A stretch of 34,500 nt of DNA, from the NCBI GenBank assembly GCA_024275095.1, contig JAJRZV010000056.1, forward strand, positions 1 through 34,500, read 5' to 3'. The notes under the pieces are model-generated. The model was given only the letters and a program-made list of their open reading frames with translations. It did no database searches and was not told where the DNA came from. The position numbers and the translations under genes are program-made. This DNA comes from a bacterium. GTDB lineage: Bacteria > JAJRZV01. This document shows positions 10,845-18,544 of this stretch, piece after piece. Position 1 is the stretch's first letter. Each line of letters starts with the position of its first letter.

Positions 10845-12161
10845 ATGAAGCGTGCTCTCAAAATCAGTGGATGGATAATTATTGCAGCATTGTTGATGTA
10901 CCTTATTTATTTAAATTCCCAGCAGGTGGATTTTAACTTTTACGGTTTCCGCTTTTCGCTGCCTGCCGGCGTGCTTTTTATCGCCGTGTTGCTGATTGGT
11001 GGCTATGCAGCATTTCTGCTCACAAGCCTGCGGATTATTACTTTGAAGACTTCCCTCGGGAGGGAAAGGAAGCTTCTTCAGAGGAATCTGGACGTGGCCC
11101 AGAAGGTTATCCAGGCAGCCTGGCTCTCAGAGGAAAATGAAGAAAGTGCAGCACTTGGACTGTTGGAAAAAGATATGCAATCGACCGACGCACGAGTTGT
11201 GCATTCCCTTATGCTTTGCAGAGCCGGAGACCATAAAAAAGCACTCCAGCTTCTTCCAGGCGACTCTTCCGAGAGAGAAAATCCCGCCGTGATGTGGCGA
11301 CGCATTGTTGAGCTTGTACACACGGGAAACAGGATGGAAGCGGTGAAAGAATATGAAGATATCGAAGACAAAAATCTCAAACGCCATCCCCTGGTTGCTT
11401 CGGCGGCAAGATTTGCATATATGGCGGCAGAGGAATGGGACAGGGCCGTTGCTGTTCAAAGAGACATATTCGTGAACAGAAAGTCCGGTGCTGCAGAAAA
11501 GTCGCGTCTGGCAGCTCTGCTTACAGCACGGGGCCAGGATTTGAGAAAAAAGAAGGATTTTGGAGAGGCTGAGAAGTCCCTCCAGGAAGCAATTTCTGTT
11601 GATGAGACATTTGTACCCGCGTATGAAAACCTTGGCACGCTTCTGGCAGATAAAAGTAATCCTCGAAAAAACACAGATAAGGCCTTAAAAATATTGAAAA
11701 AGGGCTTTTCGCACACAGGGGCGTTCGTGTTGCTTGCACGTGCCATGGACATATTCATCCAGGAAAACCGTCCTGAGGACCTTCTGCAGTTTGCACAGGA
11801 CATTTCCAGTGAAGTGAAGTTTTTACCTCAAGCACTGACTTTTCGTATCTACGCGTTTCTCAGACTGGGAATGGTGGACGAGGCAGAAAAGAACTTTTTA
11901 GAAAATGTGATTCCGAATGACATGCCATATCCATGGCGCCATAGATTAGAGTTGCTGGGACTCGTTTTAGCCATCCGCAAGGGTGATCTTGAGGGTATCC
12001 GCGATCGCTTGAGAAATGTTGAGCGGTATTTTGTGGCATTTGAAGAAAAGGCGTACAGGTGCACCAGGTGCAACTCGTCGTTTGAGACCTGGCAGCCCCT
12101 GTGTTCTGTGTGCATGAATACCTTTAGCGTGTTTGCGGAACACACAAATCCTGGAAAGTAA
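10845..12161 (+). CDS. lapB: LapA-LapB fusion: membrane TPR protein with C-terminal rubredoxin-like zinc ribbon
   Basis: A 438-residue inner-membrane protein. Residues 9-24 and 40-60 are two membrane helices separated by NSQQVDFNFYGFRFSLP, the hallmark of LapA-type (DUF1049) proteins. A coiled segment (about 66-95) leads into TPR-like helices (about 95-390, with VPAYENLGTLLAD the clearest). The end carries a zinc ribbon, YRCTRC and PLCSVC (C406, C409, C420, C423), as in LapB/YciM. In E. coli, LapB uses its TPRs and rubredoxin domain to send LpxC to FtsH and so limits LPS synthesis, while LapA is a separate neighbouring protein. Here both appear joined. GAGGAG lies eight bases before the ATG. 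The operon position is 12 bases after rlmH. The fusion call is inference from motif order. Confidence 0.8.
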   Translation: MKRALKISGWIIIAALLMYLIYLNSQQVDFNFYGFRFSLPAGVLFIAVLLIGGYAAFLLTSLRIITLKTSLGRERKLLQRNLDVAQKVIQAAWLSEENEESAALGLLEKDMQSTDARVVHSLMLCRAGDHKKALQLLPGDSSERENPAVMWRRIVELVHTGNRMEAVKEYEDIEDKNLKRHPLVASAARFAYMAAEEWDRAVAVQRDIFVNRKSGAAEKSRLAALLTARGQDLRKKKDFGEAEKSLQEAISVDETFVPAYENLGTLLADKSNPRKNTDKALKILKKGFSHTGAFVLLARAMDIFIQENRPEDLLQFAQDISSEVKFLPQALTFRIYAFLRLGMVDEAEKNFLENVIPNDMPYPWRHRLELLGLVLAIRKGDLEGIRDRLRNVERYFVAFEEKAYRCTRCNSSFETWQPLCSVCMNTFSVFAEHTNPGK

Positions 12162-12163
12162 GA

Positions 12164-14260
12164 ATGAGGAGAATCCCGGTATTTGCCACGTGTATCGTCG
12201 TCTTGATACCGGCAGGATGTTCTCAAAAGGTCAATCTCCCTCCCGCTATTGAACGAGTCTCTCCTGACCAGGAGGAACAAACCGTGCTCACGTTGAGGGA
12301 TTATACTTTTTCCGTAACCGCTCACGATCCGGAAGGGGCGACTGTTACCGTGAGGTGGTTTCTCAATGGAGAAGACCTTCACTCCTACAGTTTTTCTGTT
12401 ACTGTGAATCTGGAAGAAGAATGGGCAGGTACAGAAATGCTGTTGGAAGCCGAGGCGTCGGATGGTCGAAAAACATCAAAAGTTGACTGGAACCTGAACG
12501 TGCTTTCTCCTTTATACCTGACTCGCAAGGCTGTGGAAGCCCTTGCTCATCCAGATGCCATATCCGGGGTGTACGCAGATAAAACTCTCAGGAATTGGTA
12601 CATTTTATGGCTGAAAAACTCTTTTCGGGATGCAGACGCTTTGTACTCAGGGCACGATTTCGACAATGATTCCGTGGATGATGCTTACTACGTGCAGGTA
12701 ACAGGACACGCTGTGCTCGGTGTCCTGTTGTTCGTTGATGCACTTGTATTCATGGAGACGGCAGGGACACAAATCAGTACAGATGCTCTGCTTTACGCGG
12801 TTGCACCTTATCCAGGTTCGATGCTTCCCGGCGTTATCCCGGGAAATACATGTTCTGTTTTGACAAGCCCCAATTCGCTCTTATGGGTGATTGCCGAAAG
12901 CCTTGTACCGGAAGTGGAACAACGAGCTTCTGAAATACTGGAAACATTATCGCCGCTTTTAAACAGTGGCGATCCATTCGAGATAGAAATTTCAGGTGTG
13001 GAACACCTTTCCCTGATAGACCAGTGGGCCTGGCTTTTTCGTGGAAAAATGGATACGGGGGATATTTACTTAATGGGGGCTTTGATCAATGCGGTGCTGG
13101 GAATGCTTCAGTATTTGTCTGCATATTCGACCGATACGTTTCGCGGCTTACTATCGTATTTTTTCGACCCGTGCTATTACCTGGGACCATGGGCTGATTC
13201 GGACAATTTTCCTCAATTCGGTGTTCCCGCAACTGTATACGCAGAGAGCCTCGCCGGTGCCAAGGAAAATATTCTCTCTTCTGTGAGCTCGCTCGCCCGC
13301 TTTTTTCAACTGGCAACCCGCTCTATTGCCCCGGCTTCCAGGGAGATGACCGGTGTGGATGAATACGGGCGCCTGTTTTTACCTTTCGGTGTGGTGGTCA
13401 ACGATGGTGTCTATGTGCTTGCGCTCACTGGATTCGACTGGATAGAGATGAGAAGAACACTTCAGAATTTTGTCACTGCAATATCCAATGGTTACAATTT
13501 TCCTCTTACCAGCCTGTTTCAAACAGAAATTACTTTTTCTGACCTCTGGATTAATACGTCTCGTCTTTTCTCTGAACCTCTCACGTTGAGTCAGGTATTA
13601 CCTTTATTTATCGAATCCGATAGGGGCGAGTATATTTCCGATACTCCCAACGGAACCTCCAGGCTTTACGATTTACCAGAGCCGTGTTTGGATGTTAATT
13701 TCGACGGCGTGTGTTCAGGTGAAGAAGACTTTGCTGATCTGGATGAAAACGGGGCTTACACTGGTGGAGATGCCTTTATAGATGATTCATGGCCCAACGG
13801 TGTGCTTGATGGCCTGTATTCTCCTCCGGGAGCCTTTTACTACGAGAGAGAAACTTCGTTTTTCTACGACACGGGTCGCGACGGGCTTATGCCCTATTCC
13901 AACGGTTATCCAGGACCTGATCCCGACGGTTCCCAGAACAACGGCCTCTATGAACCTGGTGAGCCGGTGGAGGGTGGTACGTACTCGCAACAGAGTACAA
14001 CTCACACCTGGCCTGATGTGACGGGCACACGCTGGGCTTCGTGTACAAGCTGTACCGGTACCGACCCTGACAATGGAGTGATAGACGAGTTTTACCTGTT
14101 TTTTCCGGACCCAACACTTTCCGGCCTTCTGGTGCCCGGGGCTGCTTTCGACCCCGACGGTAGCGGCGGATTCTCAAACGGGGACCTCAATGCAGCTCTA
14201 AGTGTTATACGACACAAACTGGGAAAATCCCGGCGTTTTATTCCGCTCACTGTTCCCTGA
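12164..14260 (+). CDS. Large lipoprotein with Ig-like N-domain and Asp-rich C-terminal loops, function unknown
   Basis: A 698-residue protein that I do not recognise. Its N-terminus is a lipoprotein signal (IPAGC, lipidated C19). Residues about 25-115 resemble an Ig/cadherin-type beta domain (TFSVTAHDPEGATVTVRWF). A long helix-rich middle follows (about 120-500). From about residue 507 the sequence has repeated calcium-loop-like segments: DVNFDGVCSGEEDFAD, DLDENGAYTGGD, DPDGSQNNGLYEPGE, DPDNGVIDEF and DPDGSGGFSNGD. A CTSC pair could form a disulfide. It starts two bases after the LapA-LapB gene and its stop overlaps the next start (TGATG), so it is co-translated with the redox fusion protein. 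An envelope role is likely; the specific job is unknown. Confidence 0.8.
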   Translation: MRRIPVFATCIVVLIPAGCSQKVNLPPAIERVSPDQEEQTVLTLRDYTFSVTAHDPEGATVTVRWFLNGEDLHSYSFSVTVNLEEEWAGTEMLLEAEASDGRKTSKVDWNLNVLSPLYLTRKAVEALAHPDAISGVYADKTLRNWYILWLKNSFRDADALYSGHDFDNDSVDDAYYVQVTGHAVLGVLLFVDALVFMETAGTQISTDALLYAVAPYPGSMLPGVIPGNTCSVLTSPNSLLWVIAESLVPEVEQRASEILETLSPLLNSGDPFEIEISGVEHLSLIDQWAWLFRGKMDTGDIYLMGALINAVLGMLQYLSAYSTDTFRGLLSYFFDPCYYLGPWADSDNFPQFGVPATVYAESLAGAKENILSSVSSLARFFQLATRSIAPASREMTGVDEYGRLFLPFGVVVNDGVYVLALTGFDWIEMRRTLQNFVTAISNGYNFPLTSLFQTEITFSDLWINTSRLFSEPLTLSQVLPLFIESDRGEYISDTPNGTSRLYDLPEPCLDVNFDGVCSGEEDFADLDENGAYTGGDAFIDDSWPNGVLDGLYSPPGAFYYERETSFFYDTGRDGLMPYSNGYPGPDPDGSQNNGLYEPGEPVEGGTYSQQSTTHTWPDVTGTRWASCTSCTGTDPDNGVIDEFYLFFPDPTLSGLLVPGAAFDPDGSGGFSNGDLNAALSVIRHKLGKSRRFIPLTVP

Positions 14261-16494
14261 TGGTCATCACACGCTTAAGCAGATATGGGCTCTTTTTTTA
14301 CTTTTGTGGTTTGATGGTTTATCTCTTCATCACGAAGCCTGAGAAAAAACCTGTCTCCCCCAAAGATTTAAAAAAAATAACAGCTGTGGAATGGAAAAGA
14401 ATGGAACAACCGGTACCACATTTCGTTTCCGGTGATGGTAAAAGACAGGGCTTTGTAACCGACGAAATTCCTCCAAAGGTTCGGGGGTATTGTGATGAGG
14501 TTGGCGTGTTTATCGAAACAGATAACAACGGACGTATTTCGGGCGCTTATCCCATCCGATACTGTGAGACACCATATTATTTTGACATTGTGAAGGACTC
14601 GGGTTTTTTTGAAAAATTGAAAGGGCAATCTCTTTCACAACCTCTCAAAATAGACACCGTAACCGGTGCCACAGTAACCTCCCGGGCAATTATCAAAGAT
14701 GTGGAAAAAAGCGGCGTTCGTTTTGCAAAAGATGTTCTGAAAATCCCTGTTGTTGGCAGGAAGGGATTTCATATACCGTGGGAATCCGTACTGGTGGTTG
14801 TGATTCTCTTTGCAGGAATTTTACCCCGCCTCTATCGCAAAAGATGGACGGGTTTGGTAATACAGGGTATCAGTTTTATCGTGATAGGCGTGTATCTGTG
14901 TGCTCCTGTAACCGTCTCCGCAATAGGTGAGCTCATGAAAGGAGGATCCGTGTTTTCGTCTGTTGCATACCTGCTGGCTGCGGGGGCTTTTGTTCTCGCA
15001 TTTTTTTATCGCAATGTGTACTGCCAGTACGTGTGTCCTTTTGGCTGTGCGATAGACCTTGCAGGTGCTCCAGTAAAAACCGTGTTTCCCATCGAGGCCC
15101 GGGATGCAGGCATTGGTCGCTTTGTACGTGATGTCATCACGGTGATTATATTGAGCATCCTCCTCCTCGCAGGAGACCGCAGGGCGGGATTCGTTGAGCC
15201 ATTTGCCTGGCTCTTTTCAAAAGCTCTTTTTGGTGCATTTGCATTAACTTACGGCATTTTAACCATTGCAGCATCCGTTATGGTCAGGCGCATGTGGTGT
15301 TATTACCTCTGTCCCACAGGGGCTATCTTCAGCGCAGCCGAGCAGACGGGATTGAAGGTGAGAGAAAAAATTGGAAGGCTGTTCAAACGAGTTGGAAAGT
15401 TTAAAATTACCACCGCCTTAATTCTGCTCGTGCTGATCGTTTCTGGTTGTGGTGGGAAGAGTGGTTTTTCCAGAGATGAGCAACAACCTTTCGACATGGC
15501 CTATTATGCTGAATTTGTCGAATATTCGTCCCTCAAAGATCTTCTTCCTTCTTTTGCTGCATCGAAATATTCCATACACCTGGCAGTGCCTTCATCGCTG
15601 CTCGGTGATTCCAAGACCGCCGCTTTCCTCACAGATGCAGAAAAAAACGGAGTAAATGTGTATCTCTGGCTGACCCTGCCGTATGAATCCGGCTACTGGA
15701 TAAGCGAGACAAACATAGAGGAAGCCTGTGAACTTTTCAAAAAGTTTGGACAATGGAATGTGGATGAAAATCTTGGCCTGGACGGTTTTGTCTTTGACAT
15801 GGAAGCGCCGTATGAATTTGCAGTACTTGCCCAGGGAGGGCTTACGGGTATTACCACGGCAGTGGTGCGTCTTATGGATCAAATTAATCCTTTTCAGTAC
15901 GAAAATTCCCGCGCTATTTTAGAAAGTTGCATAGCGGATTTAAAGCAAAACTTTAGCTTGCCAGTGTTTGCTGTTACATATCCCATGGTTCTTGATGACC
16001 TCGTGGCTGGAGGAGAGGGATTTCAGGACCTTTTCGGCATTCCTGTGGCAGGGCTACCGTGGGATGAAGTGGGGTTTATGGTGTACACCACCACCTTCAA
16101 AAGCTCAGGTATTACAGCCGGCCCCGGGATAGTGAAATCCTACGCGAGGGATGCTGTCCTGTTTTTCGGCAAAAAGGCAGCAATTGGACTGGGGATTGCA
16201 GGCAACGCGGGAATTGGAGTTCACTCGGGGGATGCATCACCTCTTTATTTTTTCCCGGAGATTTACTGTGCCGCAGCAGAGGAGATTTCCCGGTTTCGCA
16301 TTTATTCAGTCGTAGGGATACTTCTCGACCCTGATCAACTCTGGTTTCAGTTGGAAAAAGAAGCTGGCGGTGCTGCAAATTACTCCTGTGCAGAAACGCC
16401 TGCAGAAAGGGGATTTCGAAAGGCTTTGATTTCAGTGGCTCGATACCTGGAGGAAAAACGGCAGCAAATTATAGGAACTTACGTTCAGGAATAA
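14260..16494 (+). CDS. Membrane FMN/4Fe-4S (NosR/NapH-like) module fused to a periplasmic glycosidase-like domain
   Basis: A 744-residue two-part protein. After an N-terminal helix (8-25), residues about 55-155 form an FMN-binding domain with the flavinylation motif DTVTGAT (132-138, acceptor T138), a site used by ApbE for covalent FMN. Membrane helices follow, with two CxxxCPxG clusters, CQYVCPFGC (255-263) and CYYLCPTGA (347-355), as in NosR and NapH. The soluble ferredoxin domain usual in NosR is missing. At 382-397 comes a helix ending in LIVSGC, a lipobox-like site, then a domain of about 340 residues with LDGFVFDME (507-515), matching the GH18 glycosidase pattern DGxxxDxE (possible acid E515). 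The first half should pass electrons across the membrane; the second would be periplasmic. GTG 15358 could start a separate lipoprotein, but no Shine-Dalgarno supports it. Confidence 0.8.
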   Translation: MVITRLSRYGLFFYFCGLMVYLFITKPEKKPVSPKDLKKITAVEWKRMEQPVPHFVSGDGKRQGFVTDEIPPKVRGYCDEVGVFIETDNNGRISGAYPIRYCETPYYFDIVKDSGFFEKLKGQSLSQPLKIDTVTGATVTSRAIIKDVEKSGVRFAKDVLKIPVVGRKGFHIPWESVLVVVILFAGILPRLYRKRWTGLVIQGISFIVIGVYLCAPVTVSAIGELMKGGSVFSSVAYLLAAGAFVLAFFYRNVYCQYVCPFGCAIDLAGAPVKTVFPIEARDAGIGRFVRDVITVIILSILLLAGDRRAGFVEPFAWLFSKALFGAFALTYGILTIAASVMVRRMWCYYLCPTGAIFSAAEQTGLKVREKIGRLFKRVGKFKITTALILLVLIVSGCGGKSGFSRDEQQPFDMAYYAEFVEYSSLKDLLPSFAASKYSIHLAVPSSLLGDSKTAAFLTDAEKNGVNVYLWLTLPYESGYWISETNIEEACELFKKFGQWNVDENLGLDGFVFDMEAPYEFAVLAQGGLTGITTAVVRLMDQINPFQYENSRAILESCIADLKQNFSLPVFAVTYPMVLDDLVAGGEGFQDLFGIPVAGLPWDEVGFMVYTTTFKSSGITAGPGIVKSYARDAVLFFGKKAAIGLGIAGNAGIGVHSGDASPLYFFPEIYCAAAEEISRFRIYSVVGILLDPDQLWFQLEKEAGGAANYSCAETPAERGFRKALISVARYLEEKRQQIIGTYVQE

Positions 16495-16523: not shown

Positions 16524-17195
16524 ATGGTAAAAAGAGAACAGGCACCTTCTTCATCTCTCCTTTTTGAGCCTGTGACAATAGGTGGACTTGAATTAAAAAA
16601 CCGGTTGATAATGCCGGCCATGCACCTCAATTTCACCCCGGGTGGTGACGTCAACGAGAAAATTATAGAGTTTTACAGGCTGCGAGCGAAGGGTGGGGTA
16701 GGACTTATCATTGTCGGGGGAGCCTCTGTGGACAGGCTCGGCTCCAATCCCCTCATGCTTGGACTTCATGAGGACAGGTTCATACCAGGTCTCCGGGAAC
16801 TGGTCAAAGCGGTGAAGAACGAGGGGGCAAAAATTGGTGTCCAGCTGTATCATGCCGGTAGATACAATTATCGGGTCCTTACAGGGGGTGAGCAGCCTGT
16901 TGCACCTTCAGCGGTTGCGTCACGTCTGGGGGATACTCCCAGAGAAATGACATTAGAGGATATTCAAAGGGTCCAGCAGGCTTTTATCGATGCTGCTCGT
17001 CGTGCTGCAGAAGCAGGATTCGACGTGGTGGAAATATCCGGCTCAGCGGGTTATCTCGTGTGCCAGTTTCTTTCACCCTTAACCAACCGCAGAAATGATG
17101 AATATGGTGGCTCGCTCGAGAACAGATTCCGGTTCGTAAGCGAAATTATTGCGGGTATAAAAAAGGAACTCGGCGTTGATTTCCTCTGTCAGTGA
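16524..17195 (+). CDS. fadH: 2,4-dienoyl-CoA reductase (FadH family), N-terminal part before a frameshift
   Basis: This 223-codon frame encodes the first two thirds of an OYE-type FMN barrel: VQLYHAGRYN, GSAGYLVCQFLSPLTNRR and DEYGGSLENRFRF are all family features, and the GSxGYL segment matches FadH rather than the HxAHGYL version of other old yellow enzymes. It ends prematurely with DFLCQ and a TGA at 17193. Continuing in the +2 frame restores PLSVRMAGDD and the rest of FadH, so one base appears lost at TTCCTC (17181-17186). GGGAGGAAACACC before the ATG at 16524 is a strong ribosome site. FadH reduces 2,4-dienoyl-CoA during oxidation of unsaturated fatty acids. Unless the base is a sequencing error, this is a truncated, inactive barrel. 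Confidence 0.88.
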   Translation: MVKREQAPSSSLLFEPVTIGGLELKNRLIMPAMHLNFTPGGDVNEKIIEFYRLRAKGGVGLIIVGGASVDRLGSNPLMLGLHEDRFIPGLRELVKAVKNEGAKIGVQLYHAGRYNYRVLTGGEQPVAPSAVASRLGDTPREMTLEDIQRVQQAFIDAARRAAEAGFDVVEISGSAGYLVCQFLSPLTNRRNDEYGGSLENRFRFVSEIIAGIKKELGVDFLCQ

Positions 17196-18544
17196 GAATG
17201 GCAGGTGATGATTTCGTAGGGGGTAGTAACAATATTCTCGAAACGGTGAAAATCGCCAGGCTTTACCAGGATGCAGGAGTACATCTTCTGTCGGTAACCG
17301 GAGGATGGCATGAAACGCGTGTGCCCCAGATTACTATGAATGTACCAGAGGGAGCTTTTGCATACCTTGCAAGAGAAATCAAGAAAGCTGTAGATATTCC
17401 TGTTGCGGCATCCAACCGTATCCGGCATAAAGCATTTGCAGAGCAACTGCTCAAAGAAGGATGGTGTGATCTGGTCAACCTTGGGCGTCCTCTCATTGCT
17501 GATCCTCATCTCCCTGCCAAGTGGTCGTGGAACAGAGAAAATGAAGTGTTGCTTTGTACTGGGTGCAACCAGGGTTGTTTTGATCCCCTGTTCACGGGAG
17601 AGCCCTCCACGTGTACGGTCAATCCTTACGCAGGCAGGGAAAGCGAATGGATGTTCACATCTGCGGGAAAAAAGAAAAAAGTTTTGATAATAGGAGCTGG
17701 GCCTGCAGGAATGAATGCGGCGATTACCGCAGCAGAGCGAGGACATGATGTCGTACTTTTCGAAAAGGAGGATGAACCGGGTGGAATGCTCAGGTATGCA
17801 GGTCTTCCTCCCGGACGTGAAGACTGGATGGAATACCTGGATTACATGAAGCGCCAACTCGAAAAAGCGCCTGTAGATATAAATTTCAGTGCAAAAATTT
17901 CTTCTAAGGAAGTACTGAGTATTAAACCTGACGCCCTCGTTGTGGCTACAGGAGGGGAACCTGTGATTCCGGAGATCCCCGGGGTTCACCTGGACCACGT
18001 CGTCAGTGCTATTGATGTACTCGCCGGTCGGATCAAGCCCGGAAAAAGAGTGGTCATAATCGGCGGTGGCGGGACGGGTGTGGAGGCTGCGCTCGCCCTT
18101 GCAGCGAGGGGGACGGTGGACAGCAAACAGTTTTTCTTTTTGTGGATGTGGGGAGCCGTAACAGAGGATATTGCAAAGCGGATCACGTTAAGAGGAACCC
18201 ACGAAGTTACAATTCTCAAAAGGAGCCCGGGAATGGGCCGGGGACTGTCGCGCTCCACGCGATGGGTGATGATTCACGAACTCAGGAAACGAGGTGTGCA
18301 CATGTACGATGGTGTCACTTTTCATTCCATCAGCGAGGAAGGCATCACATGTACAGTAAGAGGAGAAGAAAAATTTTTTCCAGCTGACACCGTTGTCATT
18401 GCCGCAGGGCTACGGCCGCGACGGGAGATTTACGACGAGCTGAAAGAACAATTTAAAGAAATTTACCTGATTGGTGATGCTGCTTCACCCAGAAGAGCAT
18501 TGCAGGCCATTAACGAGGGTGTGGAAATAGGGTTGAAGATATGA
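17192..18544 (+). CDS. fadH: 2,4-dienoyl-CoA reductase (FadH family), C-terminal part after a frameshift
   Basis: This 450-codon frame completes the protein begun at 16524; together they give 673 residues against about 672 for E. coli FadH. It starts formally at GTG 17192, but the reading frame extends upstream to the frameshift site. It holds the end of the FMN barrel (TGGWHETRVP, LVNLGRPLIADPHLP), the 4Fe-4S cysteines CTGCNQGC and STCTVNP, an FAD-binding IGAGPAGMNAA motif and a second dinucleotide fold IGGGGTGVEAA for NAD(P)H. The C-terminal VVIAAGLRPRRE and IYLIGDAASPRRALQA segments are also typical. There is no ribosome site of its own before 17192. Related enzymes such as enoate reductases share this layout, so the exact substrate is less certain than the family. 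Confidence 0.88.
   Translation: MRMAGDDFVGGSNNILETVKIARLYQDAGVHLLSVTGGWHETRVPQITMNVPEGAFAYLAREIKKAVDIPVAASNRIRHKAFAEQLLKEGWCDLVNLGRPLIADPHLPAKWSWNRENEVLLCTGCNQGCFDPLFTGEPSTCTVNPYAGRESEWMFTSAGKKKKVLIIGAGPAGMNAAITAAERGHDVVLFEKEDEPGGMLRYAGLPPGREDWMEYLDYMKRQLEKAPVDINFSAKISSKEVLSIKPDALVVATGGEPVIPEIPGVHLDHVVSAIDVLAGRIKPGKRVVIIGGGGTGVEAALALAARGTVDSKQFFFLWMWGAVTEDIAKRITLRGTHEVTILKRSPGMGRGLSRSTRWVMIHELRKRGVHMYDGVTFHSISEEGITCTVRGEEKFFPADTVVIAAGLRPRREIYDELKEQFKEIYLIGDAASPRRALQAINEGVEIGLKI

Follow-up and report, generated by a model that had tools for sequence, protein, structure and literature searches.

Why a flavin-dependent electron-transfer module of the bacterial inner membrane should be continuous, in a single open reading frame, with what resembles an envelope glycosidase is the question raised by a gene found in a window of 34 500 nucleotides (the whole stretch of DNA that was analysed). 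The gene is known from one genome, 97% complete, of a bacterium belonging to a poorly sampled phylum. A first-pass annotation, made from the letters of the DNA, had proposed that a frame of 744 codons joins a covalent-FMN/iron-sulfur membrane module to a GH18-like domain, and that the product may link the redox state of the quinone pool to a polysaccharide process in the envelope. The frame is present exactly as proposed (table 1) and is continuous, with no stop codon between the two halves. For the fusion, the reading frame, the identity of the module, the lipobox, the predicted fold of the barrel and the existence of the parts as separate genes elsewhere were computed directly.

The reading preferred here, at a little better than an even chance, is that two entire genes, separate elsewhere, have become fused in frame, one encoding the membrane module and the other a lipoprotein precursor. 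The two families are real and their joining is unusual, but a new redox machine is not thereby proven. What is new is that a known module is combined with a TIM-barrel family not described before and, as a point of anatomy, that a lipoprotein signal peptide is embedded in the protein, which alters the interpretation of the fusion.

Table 1. Coordinates (window numbering) of the fusion gene, its parts and the preceding gene, with the basis of each assignment; A2 and A7 are the module and barrel alignments described in the text.
Feature	Position	Strand	Basis
Upstream lipoprotein, 698 aa	12164..14260	+	overlaps fusion start codon (TGATG); no Pfam family
Whole fusion ORF	14260..16494	+	single open frame, ATG start, 744 aa
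PceC/RdhC-type (NapH-like) membrane module, residues 1-382, six predicted helices	14260..15405	+	FMN_bind and two Fer4_5 matches; hydropathy; 26-31% identity to stand-alone proteins of 390-408 aa
FMN_bind domain, residues 76-149	14485..14706	+	PF04205 above cut-off, 5e-10, 40 bits
Flavinylation motif DTVTGAT, predicted FMN-threonine T138	14653..14673	+	sequence; V134, G136, A137 and T138 invariant in A2
First CX3CP motif, CQYVCP, residues 255-260	15022..15039	+	sequence; invariant in A2
Second CX3CP motif, CYYLCP, residues 347-352	15298..15315	+	sequence; invariant in A2
Predicted lipoprotein signal peptide/seventh helix, residues 367-397, lipobox VSGC397 at 15439-15450	15358..15450	+	sequence, hydropathy; same layout in stand-alone family members
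Predicted (beta/alpha)8 barrel domain, residues 412-744, no Pfam entry	15493..16491	+	AlphaFold2, Foldseek, relatives in 27 genomes
DGFVFDME, residues 508-515, where strand 4 ends; candidate catalytic acids D513 and E515, both invariant in A7	15781..15804	+	predicted structure, alignment

The membrane redox module

On the evidence of its sequence, the first half of the protein is assigned to the flavinylated membrane proteins of the PceC/RdhC type (NapH-like). In the Pfam search Fer4_5 (PF12801) matches it twice (3e-10), and these matches, together with that of FMN_bind, support the earlier claim of a membrane redox module of the covalent-FMN type, the proposed DTVTGAT motif ending at T138 as described; the NapH, RnfG and NosR matches in NCBIfam were all below threshold. 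Attachment of FMN to the module and its redox activity are predicted properties. The iron-sulfur clusters of the first-pass annotation fare less well: the two CX3CP motifs are indeed found, at residues 255 and 347, but whether such motifs bind Fe-S in PceC-type proteins is unsettled (PMC5928378).

The fusion protein sequence contains no further cysteine cluster and no C-terminal ferredoxin-type motifs. What had been taken for an oddity, namely the missing ferredoxin domain, is ordinary because the PceC/RdhC architecture has no C-terminal Fe-S motifs, which Buttet et al. describe as a striking difference of RdhC from NosR and NapH (PMC5928378), and most of the module relatives found here are likewise devoid of the domain. 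A survey of flavinylated systems classes such proteins as NapH-like, used with several outside oxidoreductases (PMC8238504).

A profile of the module made from four members (alignment A2) yields many relatives. Among the best 29 loci, excluding the window, 23 end 21-61 residues past the start of the second CX3CP motif and five bear a third such motif close to their end. The remaining one (L086, in genome G124) goes on, by way of an extra helix, to a nitroreductase domain, and the window protein runs on for 398 residues. At three loci with a stand-alone module (L119, L121 and L122, in G039, G190 and G322) the neighbouring gene resembles priA by eye, and inspection of these loci revealed no evident oxidoreductase partner beside the module.

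Whether the genome has the means to flavinylate the module had also been raised at the outset, and one apbE is found, on another contig than the fusion ORF. In the profile search of this genome FMN_bind gave one match, the fusion protein itself, so that no other ApbE client of the FMN_bind type is seen there; with a single FMN_bind domain and a single ApbE, the module is probably still in service. At L128:4123-7357 (G000:C96) the apbE gene is flanked by a Sir2-family gene and by a gene of the RACo type (corrinoid-protein activator). One apbE and one FMN_bind protein provide a clean setting in which to ask what a minimal flavinylation system is for.

The junction

The sequence at the junction, KVREKIGRLFKRVGKFK-ITTALILLVLIVSGC397-GG, passes from a basic stretch through a hydrophobic helix to a lipobox. 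The pattern [LVI][ASTVI][GAS]C is matched by V394-S-G-C397 (KRVGKFK-ITTALILLVLIVSGC397), but at an internal position rather than at the N-terminus. Counting of the helices places both CX3CP motifs in the cytoplasm and gives the seventh helix an in-to-out direction. The residues immediately ahead of this helix carry a net charge of +6, and C397 and the barrel should accordingly face the periplasm; the basic tail and the direction of the helix agree with the positive-inside rule. By hand count, 21 residues separate Cys397 from the conserved glutamate of strand 1, versus 17-23 in nine stand-alone members with short linkers (L035, L036, L037, L040, L043, L045, L048, L049 and L053, the lipoboxes of L036 and L049 being loose), the linkers of the other members being longer. 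Having a signal peptide with a lipobox and a family-like spacing, the second half has the make-up of a complete lipoprotein precursor and is not merely a domain.

An LspA gene is found in the genome, and lipidation and LspA cleavage may take place at C397, as predicted from the lipobox; no precedent for cleavage at an internal lipobox of a multi-helix protein was found in the literature searched. If the fusion is genuine, it would, unusually, place a lipoprotein precursor within the final part of a membrane protein with several helices, and would offer a way to find out directly whether internal signal peptides are substrates for Lgt and LspA.

The barrel domain

Sequence comparison says little of the second half, for which the Pfam search gave nothing credible and a sequence search of the PDB with the barrel returned only repeat-protein matches of low meaning. 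AlphaFold2, run with ten aligned sequences, predicts a complete eight-strand barrel (mean pLDDT 87.7, pTM 0.87), with strands at residues 412-417, 438-444, 467-472, 509-514, 569-573, 603-607, 640-647 and 678-682 of the protein; prediction of the full-length protein gives the same barrel elements, and renders the first half poorly without homologues. The earlier claim of a fusion to an extracytoplasmic TIM barrel, for which an unrelated fold of the second half would have been the unfavourable outcome, is thereby supported, and the LDGFVFDME motif that had suggested it does lie in this half (D508 to E515).

Five residues, E418, D513, E515, D579 and Y609, are invariant in the ten-sequence alignment (A7). 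They map to the C-terminal ends of strands 1, 4, 5 and 6 of the predicted barrel, or immediately beyond these ends, which form the active-site face of such barrels. In the PDB, Foldseek relates the model to beta-amylase (GH14), GH164, the C-terminal domain of PgaB (GH153) and sugar epimerases, with TM scores of about 0.5 or below, and a structure search of a viral library gave GH5, GH18 and hexosaminidase-like barrels among others. To judge from the model, the barrel is glycosidase-like; it belongs to no Pfam family, no redox-cofactor signature is evident in it, and its best folds are those of glycosidases and epimerases.

The more specific designation 'GH18-like', taken as a family, was abandoned, GH18 membership failing on profile, motif and profile-profile evidence. 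Neither the window protein nor any of 13 members matched PF00704 above threshold in the Pfam search, and the fusion's own genome has no match to this profile. In DGFVFDME the middle Asp of DxxDxDxE is replaced by Val; the final Glu of the motif is invariant across the alignment A3, and the Asp two positions before it is Asp or Asn in nearly all members. The profile-profile probability for GH18 is only 22%, though DGFVFDME aligns with DGVDIDWE, and a very distant tie to GH18 may exist.

The two families in other genomes

The barrel family is present in 27 other genomes. It occurs in four of seven genomes from the phylum to which G034 belongs, where a genome may hold as many as four copies, and in 16 genomes of a 386-genome sample besides the one with the fusion, two of them from that phylum; nine loci come from GTDB, mostly labelled Myxococcota. 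The searched collections of viral contigs and plasmids gave no useful match. Wherever the gene start is visible the barrel is a separate gene (the copy in G194 runs off its contig upstream), and the stand-alone relatives are mostly lipoproteins or secreted proteins, many being clear lipoproteins, often with long Asp/Asn-rich linkers. In the tree, the window copy belongs to a clade of 25 rows that holds lipoproteins (100/100), its placement within the clade not being fixed by the tree, and the other clade comprises ten rows, several members of which have no evident signal peptide. The loci of this widespread TIM-barrel family (L020-L062), unnamed, glycosidase-like and without a Pfam entry, make it a target for enzyme discovery.

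No module gene lies beside a stand-alone barrel, either within 1.5 kb in the loci from the genome search or, for L032-L040, up to 6 kb where the contig allows, and no recurring neighbour was seen by eye at seven loci of 7-13 kb. A close full-length module is found in only five of the 27 genomes (G034, G039, G190, G194 and G322), on other contigs, and is missing from the other 22. The proposal of redox-driven polysaccharide processing is therefore unsupported, since other genomes encode the barrel by a gene of its own and most of them have no close module. The other outcome that would have told against the first-pass annotation, two separate genes in related genomes together with a frame error here, is seen only in part: the genes are indeed separate and unlinked in relatives, but the junction itself shows no frame error.

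A functional link by co-occurrence was considered and is not relied on. In the 386-genome sample six of the 17 barrel genomes, this one included, have a close module (hypergeometric 3e-5), the module profile having been built from three of these genomes and two others sharing a genus; p is about 0.009, on few events, after leaving out the genomes used for the profile. No close module was found in the further barrel genomes that were searched.

Neighbouring genes

The fusion is preceded by the gene of a lipoprotein that is likely to be on the same transcript and is not part of the fusion. Near its end this lipoprotein has acidic calcium-loop-like repeats, and other genomes match it weakly and over part of its length, G194 among them with pairs of such lipoproteins. 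Upstream of it, the gene at 10845-12161 combines a LapA-type membrane domain, LapB-like TPR repeats and a C-terminal zinc-ribbon-like CxxC pair; as a rule, LapA and LapB are encoded separately. On the other side of the fusion, at 16524-18544, lies a gene of the Old-yellow-enzyme/dienoyl-CoA-reductase type, split over two frames inside its TIM-barrel domain: the match to TIGR03997 covers profile positions 2-211 and then 214-645, with the frame change about 0.7 kb after the fusion ORF. This gene is a frameshifted pseudogene or the result of an assembly indel, and the contig thus has at least one indel fault or pseudogene.

Proposed mechanism and alternatives

The simplest reading is a true fusion in which the tail of the module serves as the n-region of the signal peptide. 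The topology, flavinylation, lipidation, cleavage and activities that it entails are predictions, which can be set out as follows. ApbE would attach FMN to T138 on the outward side of the inner membrane. Electrons would reach this FMN through the helix bundle, whose two CX3CP motifs would lie on the inner side, from a donor that, by analogy, may be quinol or cytosolic; the FMN module would hand them on to some outside acceptor. The basic C-terminal tail of the module would double as the n-region of the lipoprotein signal peptide, and helix 7, inserting N-in/C-out, would present C397 and the barrel to the periplasm, where Lgt would lipidate C397 and LspA may cut before it. The barrel, as a glycosidase-like lipoprotein, would act on an envelope glycan or a similar ligand. 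The two functions probably run side by side, with no chemical coupling between them, and the two halves most likely work much as they do when separate, with lipidation, and perhaps LspA cleavage, at C397.

Several other explanations have to be weighed against such a fusion. That two neighbouring genes only seem to be fused, through loss of a stop codon in this strain only or through a sequencing or assembly error, is unlikely. In its favour, every relative examined has the parts as separate genes, the module tail up to the joint has the length usual in the family while a complete signal peptide starts right after it, and the gene that follows on the contig is broken in frame. Against it, the frame is continuous through both parts, and a start at GTG 367 leaves the module with a tail shorter than in any (ferredoxin-less) relative. 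Were there an indel in the A6 run at the junction, the module could end in a tail like that of its family, yet the lipoprotein would then have no start codon in its frame, and a frame error at this site was rejected on this ground. The same GTG (15358, residue 367), or the TTG at 15352, might instead serve as an internal start, one ORF giving both the long protein and a lipoprotein. From the GTG, a stretch of 31 residues, lipobox Cys included, resembles a standard lipoprotein signal peptide, and several genes here have no Shine-Dalgarno sequence; the Shine-Dalgarno energy upstream of GTG 15358 is, in turn, an ordinary -4.1, with about 42% of the other internal start-like codons as good or better, so that internal initiation does not rise above background in this scoring and is the least probable of the explanations considered.

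A different kind of alternative makes the protein one redox-coupled machine, in which helix 7 tethers the barrel and electrons arriving through the covalent FMN drive or gate its reaction or its binding of a ligand. It has in its favour that the two parts form one polypeptide with the FMN domain and the barrel on the same side of the membrane, and that NapH-like modules serve many outside oxidoreductases (PMC8238504). Moreover, the same module bears in G124 a nitroreductase, an enzyme that plausibly uses its electrons, so that coupling stays a live minority reading. Set against this are the glycosidase- and epimerase-like fold of a barrel with no redox-cofactor signature, the 22 of 27 barrel genomes that do without a close full-length module, none of the 27 showing the two genes adjacent, and the retained lipobox, which suggests processing rather than a permanent tether; on balance such a machine is rather improbable. 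Slightly more doubtful is the variant of a polyprotein in which a flavinylated conduit powers or gates a tethered TIM-barrel enzyme of the envelope and the internal signal peptide can be cut to release the enzyme.

Comparison with known systems

The closest counterpart of the first half of the fusion is PceC/RdhC, the C subunit encoded in reductive dehalogenase clusters (PMC5928378), with which it shares an outside FMN domain with a flavinylated Thr, six helices, two CX3CP motifs and the lack of C-terminal Fe-S motifs, and from which it differs in the addition of a seventh helix and a TIM barrel. The annotated genes of the window include none for a dehalogenase, and PF13486 (RdhA) was not found in the genome, a search in which the control genomes gave no match either. 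With NosR the fusion has in common FMN_bind and a membrane CX3CP module; unlike NosR, it has no C-terminal 4Fe-4S motifs and a shorter outside part, and the NosR model scores far below cut-off.

The barrel shares with the chitinase family GH18 a predicted TIM barrel, a fold common to many unrelated families, a DG-x(4)-DxE-like sequence (DGFVFDME) at the end of strand 4 and a Met-x-Tyr on strand 6, whereas its best matches among solved structures are GH14, GH164 and PgaB (GH153), at TM of about 0.5.

As a whole, the protein resembles the NapH-like flavinylated systems (PMC8238504) in having a PF12801 membrane protein with an N-terminal FMN_bind domain, used in a modular way with outside enzymes. 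The usual partners in those systems are separately encoded oxidoreductases, whereas here the partner is fused and not evidently redox-active. A parallel in overall design is the protein of G124 (L086:709-2637, +), in which FMN_bind, two Fer4_5 matches, an extra helix and a nitroreductase are found in one chain. It has the same module, followed likewise by an extra helix and an outside enzyme domain, but the enzyme is a nitroreductase (PF00881) and no lipobox is seen in the tail; it is an independent tail fusion of the same electron-transfer module.
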